Source: an uncultured Erysipelotrichaceae bacterium
GTDB lineage: Bacteria; Bacillota_I; Bacilli_A; RF39; UBA660
Reading direction: 5' to 3'
DNA: 46,889 nt
Assembly: GCA_902783315.1 (NCBI GenBank)
Contig: CACZQK010000012.1
Coordinates: 1 to 46,889, forward strand
Within the stretch, counting starts at the first letter, position 1, and each line of letters starts with the position of its first letter. Both the position numbers and the translations under genes were made by a program. Shown piece by piece: positions 5,663 to 36,567 of this stretch. The notes beneath the pieces are model-generated. The model did no database searches. It saw only the letters and a list, made by a program, of their open reading frames with translations, and had not been told where the DNA came from.

Positions 5663-6574
5663 TTATCTACCTACCTCAATATTCATACACTCTAATAATC
5701 TATTTAAATCATTTCCATTGACAAAGCTTATTTCGATTTTGTTTTTCTTAATTAAAACCTTGGTTCCCAATTTTTCACTTAATTCATTTTGTACATAAAC
5801 ATATTCGTTTTCTGTTTTTATTCTAGGCTTTTGAGGATTAGTCTTAATAATCTTAGGTTCTTGGGTTAGTTCTTCTAATTTTCTTACGCTAATTCCTTCT
5901 TCAATTATCTTCTTTTCTAATTCTTGCTGTTGATTAAAATCATTTAATTTACTCAATACTCTTGCATGACCCATGGTTATTTTCTTATCACTAATATCAT
6001 TTTGTATATTTTCTGGTAAGTTTAATAAGCCTAACATATTTGTAATGTGACTTCTACTCTTTCCAAGTCTTTTTGATAGTTCTTCTTGATTTAAAGATAA
6101 AGTTTCTTGTAATTTCTTATAAGCTTTTGCTTCTTCTATCGCTGTTAAGTCTTCTCTTTGTAAATTTTCTAGAAGAGCTATTTCCATCATTTGAGTATCA
6201 TTAAAATCTCTTATAATAGCAGGTATTTCTTCCTTTCCCGCTAAAATTGAAGCCTTAACTCTTCTTTCTCCTGCTATTATTTCATAGCCTTTAATTGACT
6301 TTTTTACAATAATTGGTTGAAATACGCCATGTTCTTTAATTGAATTTGCTAATTCTGTTAAAGCTTCTTGATCAAATTTTTTTCTTGGTTGATATGGATT
6401 ACTTCTAAGTTCATTCAATTTAATCATAGTTATTTCTTCTTTTGGAGTATCATTTACTATTTTTTCTTCTACTGAACTATAATCTAATACTTCATTGTTA
6501 AATAATTCTTCTAATCCTTTTCCTAAAGCTCTTCTTTTAGGAATTCCACTTTCCATTATATTATTTGTTTCCAT
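5663..6574 (-). CDS. parB: Chromosome partitioning protein ParB (Spo0J)
   Basis: A CTP-dependent DNA-sliding clamp that loads at parS, spreads and works with ParA and SMC in origin segregation. The 303-residue protein has the N-terminal ParA-activating segment RRALGKGLEELF (14-25), the ParB N domain with CTP-binding box GERRVKAS (103-109 region) and ENLQRE (136-141), the helix-turn-helix LNQEELSKRLGKSRSHITNML (161-181) and ITMGHARVL (199-207), and a C-terminal dimerisation domain. Arg174 in GKSRSH and Gly202 in TMGHAR are of the parS-specific ParB type rather than the Noc type. The gene overlaps parA by 14 bases. A second ATG at 6556 is possible, but the first keeps a purine-rich AGAAAG upstream. 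Three parS-like targets lie at 24692-24911. Confidence 0.97.
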   Translation of the reverse strand: METNNIMESGIPKRRALGKGLEELFNNEVLDYSSVEEKIVNDTPKEEITMIKLNELRSNPYQPRKKFDQEALTELANSIKEHGVFQPIIVKKSIKGYEIIAGERRVKASILAGKEEIPAIIRDFNDTQMMEIALLENLQREDLTAIEEAKAYKKLQETLSLNQEELSKRLGKSRSHITNMLGLLNLPENIQNDISDKKITMGHARVLSKLNDFNQQQELEKKIIEEGISVRKLEELTQEPKIIKTNPQKPRIKTENEYVYVQNELSEKLGTKVLIKKNKIEISFVNGNDLNRLLECMNIEVGR

Positions 6575-7349
6575 TTCTTTCTATCACTTCCTTAGCTAAA
6601 TTTATATAAGCCTCTGATCCTCTACTTTTTGGATCATATACAATGATTGGTTCCCCATGTGAAGGAGCTTCTGTTAATCTTACTAATCGAGGAATTATTG
6701 TATTATATACCTTTTCTTTAAAAAATTTACGTATGTCTTCTACTACTTCAAATCCTAAATTTGTTCTAGAATCTAGCATTGTTAGTAAAACTCCTTCTAT
6801 ATCTAATGTTGGATTTAAACTTTTCTGAGCTAGCATAATAGTTTTTAGCAATTGTGTTATTCCTTCTAAGGCAAAAAATTCGCATTGAACTGGAATAATT
6901 ACAGAATTTGAAGCAGTTAAAGCGTTAGTAGTAATTACCCCTAAAGATGGTGGGCAATCAATTATAATAAAATCAAAGCTATTTTTTATATCTGTTAATT
7001 TTATTTTTAATTGCTCTCCTTTGTTAAAACCTACTTCACTTCTACTTTTCTCTGATAATTCTAAGTCTAAACCTGCTAAATTGATTGTTGCTGGTAATAC
7101 GTATAAGTTTTTATATTTTGTTTTAATCATTGCTTCTGTTATACTACATTCACTAATTAGTACATCATAAATACTTCTTTCAATTTCTCCTTTATTAATT
7201 CCTACACCAGTAGTTGTATTTCCTTGTGGATCTAAATCAATTAATAATACCTTTTTCCCTAATACTGCTAATGATGCAGAAAGATTTATACTTGTTGTTG
7301 TTTTCCCTACTCCACCTTTTTGATTCACTAATGAAATAACCTTTCCCAT
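6561..7349 (-). CDS. parA: Chromosome partitioning ATPase ParA (Soj)
   Basis: A deviant-Walker ATPase that binds nucleoid DNA as an ATP dimer and moves ParB-parS complexes; in B. subtilis it also controls DnaA. The 262-residue sequence carries the deviant Walker A KGGVGKTTTS at residues 11-20, switch I LIDLDPQGNTTTG near 36-48, and Walker B FIIIDCPPSLG near 127-137. It lacks the long N-terminal regulatory domain of plasmid ParAs and so fits the Soj type. AGGTGA lies about five bases upstream of the ATG. An extended -10 (TGATACAAT) is visible near 7385-7377 on the minus strand, downstream of the noc terminator, so parA-parB appears to have a promoter separate from noc. Confidence 0.97.
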   Translation of the reverse strand: MGKVISLVNQKGGVGKTTTSINLSASLAVLGKKVLLIDLDPQGNTTTGVGINKGEIERSIYDVLISECSITEAMIKTKYKNLYVLPATINLAGLDLELSEKSRSEVGFNKGEQLKIKLTDIKNSFDFIIIDCPPSLGVITTNALTASNSVIIPVQCEFFALEGITQLLKTIMLAQKSLNPTLDIEGVLLTMLDSRTNLGFEVVEDIRKFFKEKVYNTIIPRLVRLTEAPSHGEPIIVYDPKSRGSEAYINLAKEVIERNGNK

Positions 7350-7418: not shown

Positions 7419-7441
7419 AAAAAAAGTAGATTTTATCTACT
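7419..7441 (-). terminator. Intrinsic terminator of noc
   Basis: Minus-strand AGTAGAT, loop AAA and ATCTACT (7441-7425) are followed by TTTTTT. It overlaps the noc stop codon and separates noc from parA. Confidence 0.85.
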
Positions 7442-8795
7442 CTTCTTTTTTTGTTTTATCGATTTTTATAATTATTTGATATGATTTTTCAAAATTCATT
7501 TCATCTAAACTAATATCTAATCCATGTTCTTTAAATTCTTTTACAATTTTCTTAATACTCTCTGATGCTTCATCAAGATTGTATTTCTTTGGAGTACTTT
7601 CTGGAGTTGTTTCTGGTGTAGATGTTATTGATAAGTTTACACCTTGTGGTTTAGAATTTGATAAGAACATTCTATTATCCATTGAATTCATTATTGCAGT
7701 TTGATTATTTGCAGTATTTATAGAGGTAAATTCTGGGATTTTAAAGTAATCTGATGTTTTTTCTGTTATCATTTCTCCAGGATCTGTTTTTACTATTTTT
7801 TCGGCAGGAGTTATAAACTGAGTATTGGCAACAGAGGATGATGGATTTCCTAAATTTAATAGACTATCTAAATCAGCCCCTCCTTTTTTATTTGTGTTGA
7901 TATTCTCCGTTTTATTCTTCATTTCATTCATATCTACTGTAGTAAAAGTTGGGGTAATATCTAATAGATTTCCACCTTCTTCTCCAGTGCTTTCATCTTC
8001 TAGCTCTCCATAATCAATAAATTTGCCCATAGGCATATCCTCTCCTTTTGGTGGTGCAATTGTCACTTTTCCATAATTTGATGTTTCAACTGGCAGTTCA
8101 GCGGTTGGCATTAATGGACTATTATTTACAAAATCATTTGCTGTTGCTACTGTTTCAGTTGGAACTTTTAAATTAGAATTATCCTTTGGATATTGTTTCT
8201 TTATTTCTTCTTCTAATACTCTTACACTCATTTTTGTATCAATTATTTTCTTTAGCATCTCTTGTTGTTGATTTGTGTCTTGAATACTTAATAAAGCTCT
8301 AGCGTGTCTTTCTGATATTTGTTCTTTTAATAGTGCATCTTGTACTTTATCTGACAATGATAAAAGTCTTATTTTATTTGCAACAGCAGATTGACTTTTG
8401 CCCATTGTTTTTGCTAATTCTTCTTGAGTTAATTGATCTAGTTCTAGAATTTTTTGATATGTTCTTGCTTCTTCGATTGGATTTAAATTTTTTCTTTGAA
8501 GATTTTCTAATAAAGCAACTTTAGCACTTTCCTTATCATCTAAATTTCTAATAATGGCTGGAATTTTTGTTAATCCAGCTAAGGCCGCTGCTTTATATCT
8601 TCTTTCTCCTGCAATTATTTCATATTTTTCGTTAGCTTTTCTAACAATTATTGGTTGAATTACTCCATGTTCTTTAATAGATATAGCTAATTCTTTTAGA
8701 GCTTTTTCATCAAAAATTTCACGAGGTTGAAATCTATTTGGAATAATATCATCTAGATATAATAGTACAACTTCATCTTTTGTTTCATGATTCAT
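7437..8795 (-). CDS. noc: Nucleoid occlusion protein Noc (ParB paralogue) with long linker
   Basis: A ParB-like CTPase that binds NBS sites and blocks division over the nucleoid in B. subtilis. The 452-residue product has PNRFQPREIF (19-28), the CTP box GERRYKAA (63-70), ENLQRK (97-102), the helix-turn-helix LTQEELAKTMGKSQSAVANKI (122-142) and ISERHARALL (160-169). Gln135, Lys141 and Arg163 match residues that set Noc rather than ParB specificity. The C-terminal block NLDEASESIKKIVKEFKEHGLDI...SYQIIIKIDK corresponds to the Noc dimerisation domain. Two departures stand out. The N-terminal amphipathic membrane helix of B. subtilis Noc is absent; an in-frame TGA lies four codons before the ATG. 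About 190 residues rich in Thr, Asn, Pro and Glu separate the DNA-binding and C-terminal domains, where B. subtilis Noc (283 aa) has almost none. The gene is monocistronic. Confidence 0.9.
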   Translation of the reverse strand: MNHETKDEVVLLYLDDIIPNRFQPREIFDEKALKELAISIKEHGVIQPIIVRKANEKYEIIAGERRYKAAALAGLTKIPAIIRNLDDKESAKVALLENLQRKNLNPIEEARTYQKILELDQLTQEELAKTMGKSQSAVANKIRLLSLSDKVQDALLKEQISERHARALLSIQDTNQQQEMLKKIIDTKMSVRVLEEEIKKQYPKDNSNLKVPTETVATANDFVNNSPLMPTAELPVETSNYGKVTIAPPKGEDMPMGKFIDYGELEDESTGEEGGNLLDITPTFTTVDMNEMKNKTENINTNKKGGADLDSLLNLGNPSSSVANTQFITPAEKIVKTDPGEMITEKTSDYFKIPEFTSINTANNQTAIMNSMDNRMFLSNSKPQGVNLSITSTPETTPESTPKKYNLDEASESIKKIVKEFKEHGLDISLDEMNFEKSYQIIIKIDKTKKEE

Positions 8796-15010: not shown

Positions 15011-15506
15011 TTAAAACTTACTTTTTTAGGCAAAATAAGAGATTATTATTTAAAAAAAGAAAAAATTTAACATATTTTATCCGTGAACTTTTAAGATGCT
15101 TTATATTTTTCTATAGGATAGATTGTTGGATGACAAATGAAGATAAAGATGAAAATATATTATTTGTAGCAAAGAAAAAAAATTTTTCGTGAGAAAATTA
15201 TAAATTTTATATTGTTAGTGAGAGTTGTACACTTTTATCAAAAAAGGAAAAGAATATTACTAATTTTAGATAATATTTTTTATTTCACAATTTCCACAGA
15301 GTTATGGAAAACTGTTTTATTCATGTTTATAAAAAATCTGTGGAAACTGTGGAAAATTTATTTTATTCCTTATATTATAAGACTTTATCGGTGGAAAAAA
15401 CTGTGATTTTTTTGTGGAAATTAATTTTTAAAGAAAACTTGTTTATTTTTTCCATAAATTCATGTAGAATATTTTTTGTTAACAAATCTTGCGGGGAGAT
15501 GGTAGA
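15011..15506 (+). other. oriC: Replication origin region (oriC), rpmH-dnaA intergenic part
   Basis: This 496-bp gene-free, very AT-rich stretch between divergent rpmH and dnaA holds a cluster of DnaA boxes of the form TTTTCCACA or close variants: 15290-15298 (ATTTCCACA), 15339-15347 and 15348-15356 (reverse GTTTCCACA and TTTTCCACA, back to back), 15390-15398, and 15413-15421 (reverse ATTTCCACA). TATTTCACA at 15281-15289 is a weaker match. The A/T-only stretch at about 15421-15480, next to dnaA, is the likely unwinding element. The first 170 bp contain no boxes that I can see, and the dnaA promoter could not be fixed with confidence. Confidence 0.88.
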
Positions 15507-16883
15507 ATGAATGTAGACATTTTCTGGTCTAAAATTTTAAGTCAAATAAAAGATGAACTAACTTCTCTTTCGTATAATACGTGGTTTTCTGACACTAAAT
15601 TGTATAAGTTAGAAGATGGTAAAGCTTATATTATTGTTCCTATGCCTATCCATAAGAAACATTTAATAGACAATTATGCAGATTTAATTCATTCTAAATT
15701 ATTGAATATAACAAATTCACATTATGAATTAATTCTATTATTAAAGGAAGAAATTGAAATAGAAGAAAAGAAAGAAGATGATAGAAAAGAAAGAATTCTA
15801 GAAAAAAGTGCTTCTTCAAATAATAATGTCAATAATAATTTAAATAAGAAATATGTTTTTGATAATTTTATCGTTGGAAACAGTAATAAATTTGCACAGG
15901 CAGCGGCTCTTTCTGTAGCTGAGAATCCCGGTAATATGTACAATCCACTTTTCTTATATGGAAATAGTGGACTTGGAAAAACACACTTGATGCATGCTAT
16001 TGGTAATTATATCGTGGAAAACACTAATAAAAAGGTGTTGTATGTTACAAGTGAACAATTTAGACAAGATTTTGTAAAAGCTAATAGAAGAGATGATAGT
16101 GGAACAAATTTTAATTATATTGATTTTTTTAAAGATAAATATAGAAATATTGATGTCTTATTAATTGATGATATTCAATTTTTAGGAGGGGCTGCTCAAT
16201 CTCAGCAAGAATTTTTTCATACATTTAATAATTTATATAATGACAGTAAGCAAATTATTATTTCTTCAGATCGCTCTCCTGATGATTTGAAACTGCTTGA
16301 AGATAGACTGCGAACGCGATTTTGTTGGGGACTAACTGTTAATATTTTTCCTCCAGAGTTTTCTCTTAGGACTGAAATACTTAAGAAAAAAATTATTGCA
16401 GGGAATTTTGAACAAGATATTCCAGATGATGTTATTGAATATATAGCCTCTAATATAGGGCCTGATGTAAGGCAATTAGAAGGATCTATTACTAGATTAT
16501 TGGCTTATTCTGCTATAATGGGAGGAGAAAAGATCACATTAGATTTAGCAATAGAAGCTTTAAAAGATTTTATTAGTAAAGGTTTTGGGGAAAAGAATGA
16601 TATTCATAGAATTCAAAAAATAGTTTCTGAATATTTTCAAATATCAGTAGAAGATATTCGAAGTAAAAAAAGAAGCTCAAATATTTCATTTCCTCGACAA
16701 ATTGCGATGTATCTGTGCCGAACAATTACTGGTGAGTCTTTTCCTAAAATAGGGACAGAATTTGGTGGAAAGGATCATTCAACTGTGATGCATTCTGTTG
16801 AAAAAATAGAAAATGAAATTAGAGAAAATAAAGATTTGGCTAATATTATTGAAAAATTAAAGAAAGATATAGGAGTTGTGTAA
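15507..16883 (+). CDS. dnaA: Chromosomal replication initiator protein DnaA
   Basis: An AAA+ ATPase that binds DnaA boxes, melts the origin and loads the helicase. The 458-residue protein has domain I (IFWSKILSQIKDELTSLSYNTWFSDTKLY), an Asn/Glu/Lys-rich domain II linker near 85-113, domain III with Walker A GNSGLGKTHLMHAIG near 152-166, Walker B VLLIDDIQFLGG and the arginine-finger region LRTRFCWGL. Domain IV carries the DNA-binding signature RQIAMYLCRTITGESFPKIGTEFGGKDHSTVMHS. The start at 15507 is chosen because GGGGAG lies eight bases upstream; a TTG six codons earlier falls inside that ribosome binding site. DnaA boxes on both sides of the gene suggest autoregulation as well as initiation. 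Confidence 0.99.
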   Translation: MNVDIFWSKILSQIKDELTSLSYNTWFSDTKLYKLEDGKAYIIVPMPIHKKHLIDNYADLIHSKLLNITNSHYELILLLKEEIEIEEKKEDDRKERILEKSASSNNNVNNNLNKKYVFDNFIVGNSNKFAQAAALSVAENPGNMYNPLFLYGNSGLGKTHLMHAIGNYIVENTNKKVLYVTSEQFRQDFVKANRRDDSGTNFNYIDFFKDKYRNIDVLLIDDIQFLGGAAQSQQEFFHTFNNLYNDSKQIIISSDRSPDDLKLLEDRLRTRFCWGLTVNIFPPEFSLRTEILKKKIIAGNFEQDIPDDVIEYIASNIGPDVRQLEGSITRLLAYSAIMGGEKITLDLAIEALKDFISKGFGEKNDIHRIQKIVSEYFQISVEDIRSKKRSSNISFPRQIAMYLCRTITGESFPKIGTEFGGKDHSTVMHSVEKIENEIRENKDLANIIEKLKKDIGVV

Positions 16884-24479: not shown

Positions 24480-24656
24480 ATAATTAAATTTAAAATTTGA
24501 ACATTATTTATTATTAATATTATTTTAAAATATATTATCAGTAAAATTTTAAGTTTTGTTCCAATTATTTACATTAAAGTTTATATATAGCTTCAAACGT
24601 GTAGGCTGTGGAAAAAATTATTTCATATATTCTTTTTATTATTTATCTTATCAAAA

Positions 24657-24672
24657 TATTTCCCGGGAAATA
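24657..24672. promoter_or_regulatory. Noc binding site 1 (NBS)
   Basis: TATTTCCCGGGAAATA, a perfect 16-bp palindrome identical to the established NBS consensus. Confidence 0.85.
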
Positions 24673-24691
24673 ATTTAACAGAAATAGTTGA

Positions 24692-24707
24692 TGCTTCACG
24701 TGAAACG
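24692..24707. promoter_or_regulatory. parS site 1
   Basis: TGCTTCACGTGAAACG; differs from the parS consensus TGTTTCACGTGAAACA at two positions. Confidence 0.8.
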
Positions 24708-24758
24708 TAATAAGTTTTAATAATTTTTGTTTTTTATATGAACTATAGCATATCAGAA

Positions 24759-24774
24759 TATTTCCCGGGAAATA
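24759..24774. promoter_or_regulatory. Noc binding site 2 (NBS)
   Basis: TATTTCCCGGGAAATA, perfect match, exactly 102 bp after site 1. Confidence 0.85.
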
Positions 24775-24793
24775 ATTTAACAGAAACAGTTGA

Positions 24794-24809
24794 TGTTTCA
24801 CGTGAAACG
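24794..24809. promoter_or_regulatory. parS site 2
   Basis: TGTTTCACGTGAAACG; one mismatch (the last base) to the parS consensus, 102 bp after parS 1. Confidence 0.87.
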
Positions 24810-24860
24810 TAATAAGTTTTAATAATTTTTGTTTTTTATATGAACTATAGCATATCAAAA

Positions 24861-24876
24861 TATTTCCTGGGAAATA
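24861..24876. promoter_or_regulatory. Noc binding site 3 (NBS, one mismatch)
   Basis: TATTTCCTGGGAAATA; the central CCCGGG reads CCTGGG, breaking the palindrome at one position. Confidence 0.75.
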
Positions 24877-24895
24877 ATTTAACAGAAATAGTTGA

Positions 24896-24911
24896 TGTTT
24901 CACGTGAAACG
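24896..24911. promoter_or_regulatory. parS site 3
   Basis: TGTTTCACGTGAAACG; one mismatch to the parS consensus, 102 bp after parS 2. Confidence 0.87.
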
Positions 24912-24955
24912 TAATAAGTTTTAATAATTTTTGTTTTTTATATGAATTATAGCAT

Positions 24956-24985
24956 ATCAAAATATTTCCCGGGAAATATTTTGAT
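24956..24985. promoter_or_regulatory. Noc binding site 4 inside a 30-bp perfect palindrome
   Basis: The NBS TATTTCCCGGGAAATA at 24963-24978 is extended on both sides into a perfect 30-bp palindrome (15-bp arms, centre between 24970 and 24971). It is the last element of the array. Confidence 0.85.
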
Positions 24986-25027: not shown

Positions 25028-25055
25028 TTACTTTTTTATTTATTTATATTAAAAT
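25027..25055 (+). promoter_or_regulatory. Promoter of the SRP RNA gene
   Basis: TTTACT (25027-25032), 17-bp spacer, TAAAAT (25050-25055). The first base of the predicted RNA, G25062, lies seven bases downstream, the normal distance. Confidence 0.65.
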
Positions 25056-25061
25056 AAGCTT

Positions 25062-25137
25062 GTGCAATGAAAGTGATTGAAATAGGTCAGGATTGGAAAA
25101 TAGCAGCCTTAAAATCCTCCTTTCATGTGCACTTTTT
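25062..25137 (+). ncRNA. ffs: Small signal recognition particle RNA (4.5S type)
   Basis: The conserved SRP RNA apical domain is present: GGTCAGG at 25085-25091, GGAAAA at 25095-25100 and AGCAGCC at 25102-25108, the Ffh-binding internal loops and GGAA tetraloop region. The ends GTGCAATGAAAG (25062-25073) and CTTTCATGTGCAC (25120-25132) pair with one bulge and close the hairpin, followed by TTTTT as terminator. At about 71-76 nt this is a minimal RNA without the Alu domain of B. subtilis scRNA (about 270 nt). B. subtilis has this gene between tadA and dnaX; here it comes before tadA. The 178-residue reading frame that starts at 25067 would begin inside this RNA, so the tadA start is placed downstream. 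Confidence 0.9.
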
Positions 25138-25153
25138 CTTTTTTGGAGGAATT

Positions 25154-36344: not shown

Positions 36345-36567
36345 TATTTTAAATGTATTGATGAAGAGCTAATATTTTTATGCTTATAGGAGAGAGCTCG
36401 GTTGGTGAAAAAGAGTATAGGAAAATTTATTAGTATGGCTTCTGAACTCCTATATCGATATGTAGGTATAGGCGTATTCGGCGTTAACGATTCAAGTGTA
36501 TAATAAAATTATTATAAAGTAAGGTGGTACCGCGATATTTCGTCCTTATATTATAATGATTTTTTTG
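36345..36567 (+). promoter_or_regulatory. T-box riboswitch, methionine specific
   Basis: The conserved T-box AAGGTGGTACCGCG is at 36521-36534, with its partner CGTCCTT at 36541-36547. Stem I features AGAGAGCTCGGTTGGTG lie at 36391-36407. An ATG at 36435-36437 (AGTATGGC context) is the probable specifier codon, fitting methionyl-tRNA and the metS gene downstream. TATAATA/TATTATA (36499-36516) forms a stem III hairpin. ATTATAA at 36511-36517 can instead pair with TTATAAT at 36551-36557, extending the T-box stem directly into a run of T residues at 36560-36566. No separate downstream anti-T-box terminator strand is visible. Uncharged tRNA-Met would be expected to raise metS expression. Confidence 0.92.

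Follow-up and report, generated by a model that had tools for sequence, protein, structure and literature searches.

A Noc protein without a membrane-targeting helix and an interleaved NBS/parS array near oriC: a candidate second clamp at a composite centromere in the order RF39

Introduction

Noc is the textbook example of how a duplicate of ParB acquired a membrane anchor and turned into a division inhibitor. A review has proposed that it arose when an amphipathic helix was grafted onto ParB (PMC7333895). Both Noc and ParB are known to load as CTP-dependent clamps, at NBS and parS sites respectively, and to slide over the adjacent DNA (PMC8429893). Specificity for NBS is conferred by Q173, K179 or K184, and R201 (Caulobacter numbering), a single lysine being sufficient (Jalal 2020, PMC7383237). 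The sites themselves are numerous. B. subtilis carries about 70 NBS, which are scarce only near the terminus (PMC4726725), and S. aureus has 41 NBS loci, all but one lying no more than 700 kb from the origin (PMC5540599).

Here we analyse a 46,889-nucleotide stretch of DNA (the window) that encodes a Noc of a different kind. In common with the Noc proteins of B. subtilis, Geobacillus and Staphylococcus (TIGR04285), the window protein has the ParB_N CTPase fold, a helix-turn-helix (HTH) domain with the Q/K/R signature of NBS specificity and a Noc-type C-terminal domain; its gene lies beside soj-parB and its sites match the NBS consensus exactly. In contrast to these proteins, it lacks the N-terminal amphipathic helix and carries a linker of about 200 residues where theirs is short. 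Moreover, the genomes of its order, a large group of uncultured gut bacteria, hold between none and 11 NBS (at most one mismatch) in one ori-proximal, parS-linked cluster, compared with about 40–70 across the origin-proximal chromosome in the known systems. The window protein was first described by a sequence-only reading, which left two options: either it does not reach the membrane, or its linker provides a new way of contacting membrane or division proteins.

Results

The window Noc begins directly at the ParB_N fold

On the evidence of the open reading frame, profile searches and structure matches, noc (positions 7437 to 8795, minus strand) encodes a 452-residue Noc-type ParB paralogue without the N-terminal membrane-targeting helix. 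The gene is located between rsmG and parA-parB. Residues 11–200 (8196 to 8765, minus strand) comprise the ParB_N CTPase domain and HTH_ParB, placed by Pfam at residues 11–100 and 102–200 respectively. They are followed by an acidic linker, predicted to be disordered and containing conserved short motifs (7584 to 8189, minus strand; residues ~203–404), and by a Noc-type C-terminal dimerisation domain of helix-strand-strand architecture (7440 to 7580, minus strand; residues ~406–452). The best NCBIfam match is TIGR04285 (Noc) at 294.5 bits, which is below the curated cut-off of 315. The last 45 residues gave an hhalign value of 96.3% with other Noc C-terminal domains versus 0.2% with those of ParB, and the CTP motifs GERRY and ENLQR are invariant among 61 sequences. 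These results confirm the earlier view that the CTP motif, the helix-turn-helix and the C-terminal domain are intact and that a long linker, of approximately 200 residues, separates the DNA-binding and C-terminal domains.

The specificity positions of the window protein are Q135, K141, S146 and R163, equivalent to Caulobacter residues 173, 179, 184 and 201. The proposal that Gln135, Lys141 and Arg163 fit NBS specificity agrees with the residues defined by Jalal 2020, and serine at the 184-equivalent position is compatible with it, since one lysine at either 179 or 184 is enough (PMC7383237). Q, K and R occupy the respective positions in 50/50 Nocs sampled across the order; where the known Nocs have Lys184, the order's proteins have serine or another residue.

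The protein starts with MNHETKDEVV and is without the LG-K/R-GL motif through which ParB binds ParA. An in-frame stop lies only three codons (GET) upstream of the ATG, which is preceded by a good Shine-Dalgarno sequence (AGTGAGGGG), so that no longer N-terminus is possible. The best solved structures matching the window protein are Noc proteins, and the alignment begins at window residues 3–9, after the N-terminal helix region of the structures themselves. The same direct start at ParB_N is seen in 89 distinct homologues (the window protein included) and in 50 Nocs from the wider order. Thus both the absence of the helix and the upstream stop, as originally reported, are borne out, and a sequencing error near position 8795 hiding an upstream N-terminus is ruled out by the conservation of this start across the order. 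The relatives include Candidatus Faecimonas gallistercoris, placed by its authors in the GTDB order RF39 (PMC8035907), which points to RF39 as the order of the window as well. In another relative (G032; L016/L055) similarity in the Noc frame is lost from around residue 360 onwards and the protein has a different end, for which a frameshift within the linker or an error of assembly is the probable cause.

The window also encodes a canonical ParB (5663 to 6574, minus strand), with R/M/N/G at the specificity positions (parS-type) and the ParA-binding motif in the form LGKGL, together with its presumed partner ParA/Soj (6561 to 7349, minus strand). The genome therefore possesses its own ParB besides Noc. 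In comparison with ParB/Spo0J, the window Noc has NBS-type residues (Q and R instead of R173 and G201), no LG-K/R-GL motif and a Noc C-terminal domain.

The linker is acidic, probably disordered and carries conserved motifs

The linker of the window protein (residues ~203–404) has a net charge of −13, and all 89 homologous linkers are acidic, with a net charge of −10 or lower. A disorder prediction, which had been proposed as a check, was obtained with AlphaFold using 61 sequences (mean pLDDT 67.5, pTM 0.40). Values in the linker were mostly 38–59, with most of residues 207–400 below 60, and the model contains two short helices (289–295 and 330–336) and no fold.

MTS-like 11-mers were rarer in the 89 linkers than in shuffled versions, and no candidate went beyond chance. 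The best 11-mer in the window protein, ITEKTSDYFKI, has a net charge of 0, is weak and overlaps the conserved motif DYFKxPDL. An amphipathic membrane helix within the linker was accordingly rejected, as nothing exceeded the level of shuffled sequence. A resemblance of KIPEF in the linker to the FtsZ C-terminal peptide was set aside, the consensus at the same place being KTPDL.

Several linker motifs are conserved in the close clade: FVN..PL.PTA, KFINYGEI, DIxxIKxNAxDIN, ADLDSLLN, FITPAEKIVK and DYFKxPDL. A linker profile detects 12/67 genera of the order; outside these, only motifs are held in common, chiefly DIxxIKxNAxDIN, which is present in a relaxed form in 11/36 linkers of the more distant genera (expectation from shuffling, 0.1). 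This pattern fits a flexible arm bearing docking peptides. With regard to the two options left by the sequence-only reading, direct membrane binding looks to have been lost, because no amphipathic helix rises above chance and the linkers are all acidic. As for a new contact, the conservation of short motifs across genera supports contact of the linker with a protein.

NBS and parS sites alternate in a single array near oriC

A tandem array without strand assignment (24649 to 24982; 102-bp period, 3.3 copies) lies between gyrA and the gene for the bacterial small SRP RNA, which is found directly downstream (25053–25146, plus strand). Within it, unstranded NBS alternate with plus-strand parS sites in the order N-P-N-P-N-P-N. 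The first NBS (24658 to 24671) is an exact match, ATTTCCCGGGAAAT, as are the second (24760 to 24773) and the fourth (24964 to 24977), and the third (24862 to 24875) has one mismatch. The first parS (24692 to 24707) has two mismatches to the consensus, and the second (24794 to 24809) and third (24896 to 24911) have one each. These four NBS are the only ones in the window with up to two mismatches (0.21 expected; 0/100 shuffles reached four), and the three parS sites are likewise the only matches in the window. No NBS with at most one mismatch was found elsewhere in the source assembly (72% complete, 108 contigs, genome of 1.4 Mb). The array, overlooked by the sequence-only reading, is located ~17 kb from noc, and dnaA, recognised by sequence (15489 to 16883, plus strand), marks the oriC neighbourhood between the two. 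Palindromic sites in a compact ori-proximal cluster are a feature of ParABS systems, and here the NBS share the parS array. We found no description of interleaved NBS/parS arrays in the open-access literature. Further along the window (36349–36550, plus strand) there is a T-box leader (Rfam RF00230, 106.7 bits).

Across the order NBS are found almost only near noc or parS

Arrays in genomes of the same genus have periods of 51–109 bp and hold as many as nine sites of each type. In 19 such arrays, 136/148 neighbouring sites alternate, versus 82 ± 6 after shuffling, although repeats within one array share descent and these counts are not independent events. Since the periods differ and the spacers are unlike between species (median z −0.46), both site types are retained even as the intervening DNA is replaced. 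In 17 genomes of the genus a single NBS (G030:C1:279447) is an exception; all others are within the array, next to it, or on contigs with parS or the array's edge.

Nearly all of the compared order genomes are metagenome assemblies, in which repeats can collapse. NBS are present in 107/117 of them, with 11 per genome at most. This mapping was based on sites with at most one mismatch, and scattered weaker sites may exist; the Noc of B. subtilis tolerates some degeneracy in its NBS. Thirteen of the least fragmented genomes, representing 12 genera, have 32/32 NBS near noc or the parS cluster. On noc-bearing contigs from 26 genomes, 84/84 NBS fall within 27 kb of noc, and the single-contig genome G167 has four, spread across 6.5 kb around the parS cluster and 17–23 kb from noc. 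Strict alternation is absent from the more distant genera, in which NBS flank or mix with parS clusters and can lie as far as ~27 kb from noc. Three stretches from other genera of the order (L210, L211 and L214) have parS-only tandem arrays with a period of 42–43 bp and 11–14 copies, the NBS being clustered beside them.

An exact NBS-parS composite was found in 12/54 genomes of the order and in 1/341 genomes of other Bacilli, and a reversed-pattern control gave 0. The sole composite outside the order (L216; G350:C33:33318-33377) has no recognisable ori genes in the surrounding stretch and is probably a chance or independent occurrence. In the other Bacilli families examined NBS are scattered single sites, and the NBS-like sites of G058 are scattered too. 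The confinement seen in the order could be the extreme of the origin-ward enrichment known in B. subtilis and S. aureus.

Long, helix-less Nocs are conserved throughout the order

A Noc match is kept in 116/117 order genomes, in nearly all of them as a long open reading frame. The 50 Nocs from across the order have 135–526 residues after the DNA-binding domain, and the ParBs of the same genomes are about 300 residues long. Short Nocs from two other Bacilli families (f9: L118 and L124; f13: L119 and L121) are also without the N-terminal amphipathic helix and keep NBS-type residues, hence the missing helix alone is not special to the order. These proteins differ from the window Noc in their length (254–272 residues), in having no long linker and in being accompanied by a few single NBS and no NBS/parS array.

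A tree built from the ParB_N-HTH region unites the Nocs of the order in one clade within Noc (support 100/99), sister to the Nocs of other Bacilli with weak support (82/75). Families with and without the helix are mixed in it, the helix-less f9 being placed near helix-bearing ones. Because of this mixing and the weak sister support, the tree leaves both loss of the helix and a late gain standing.

Discussion

The nucleoid-occlusion framing in which this protein was first presented fails, because the NBS cluster at the parS locus close to oriC rather than being distributed chromosome-wide. From the specificity residues, the missing helix, the linker with its predicted disorder and its motifs, and the placement of the sites, all of which can be read from sequence, we infer a different function. 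It seems fairly likely that the window Noc is an order-specific variant serving as the second CTP-dependent clamp of a composite NBS/parS centromere beside oriC, and not a chromosome-wide nucleoid-occlusion factor. A single stretch of a few hundred bases would be the loading zone of both proteins, with NBS for Noc and parS for ParB, and the two clamps would then slide along the same ori-proximal DNA. The linker of Noc may act as a flexible arm, whose motifs (the core DIxxIKxNAxDIN, followed by DLDxLL and KFFxP/FITPAE) would bring a partner to the origin region; candidate roles for this partner are origin anchoring, condensation or division timing. Our judgement is evenly balanced on the more general formulation, that bacteria without MinC have a centromere in which sites of two kinds are interleaved and each kind loads a ParB-family CTP clamp of its own, with ParB connecting parS to ParA and a membrane-free Noc connecting NBS to a second partner through a disordered arm.

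The C-terminal domain of MinC (PF03775) was not detected above cut-off in 60 genomes of the order, with controls such as B. subtilis positive and a single weak match (L226). Division placement must therefore differ from that in B. subtilis, and the need for another placement system lends some appeal to nucleoid occlusion restricted to the origin, whereby the linker would bind a division or membrane protein and the ori-bound complex would keep the Z ring off segregating origins. The conserved motifs in the linker resemble protein-binding motifs, and the Nocs of S. aureus and B. subtilis cannot replace each other, which suggests specific partners (PMC5540599). However, a few hundred base pairs of sites cannot protect a whole nucleoid, no membrane helix was found in the window Noc or its linker, and in B. 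subtilis a helix-less Noc has no activity (PMC4331003). We consider this explanation unlikely.

Less probable still is a role in replication initiation, in which Noc loaded beside oriC would act on DnaA, by analogy with the limiting effect of Noc on initiation in S. aureus. The noc mutants of that species over-initiate, a defect that dnaA mutations suppress (PMC5540599), and dnaA sits between noc and the array in the window; yet the array lies ~8 kb past dnaA, interleaved with parS, and no feature of the linker is tied to DnaA. We give very little credence to a relict Noc, kept by drift after losing its membrane function and its nucleoid-wide sites, or to an assembly or annotation artefact: the missing helix and the few sites do resemble decay in a reduced 1.4 Mb genome, but the gene is retained almost throughout the order, nearly always as a long open reading frame, neither its DNA-binding residues nor its CTP motifs vary, the NBS are kept exact while the spacers diverge, and the linker motifs are conserved.

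If the window Noc does act as a second clamp beside ParB, the question raised is what role such a clamp plays at a centromere. An order whose Noc is NBS-specific and anchor-less, and whose sites are found almost only at the parS locus, indicates that NBS specificity and the membrane anchor are separable. Furthermore, the Nocs of this order make the sequence of events in Noc evolution testable.
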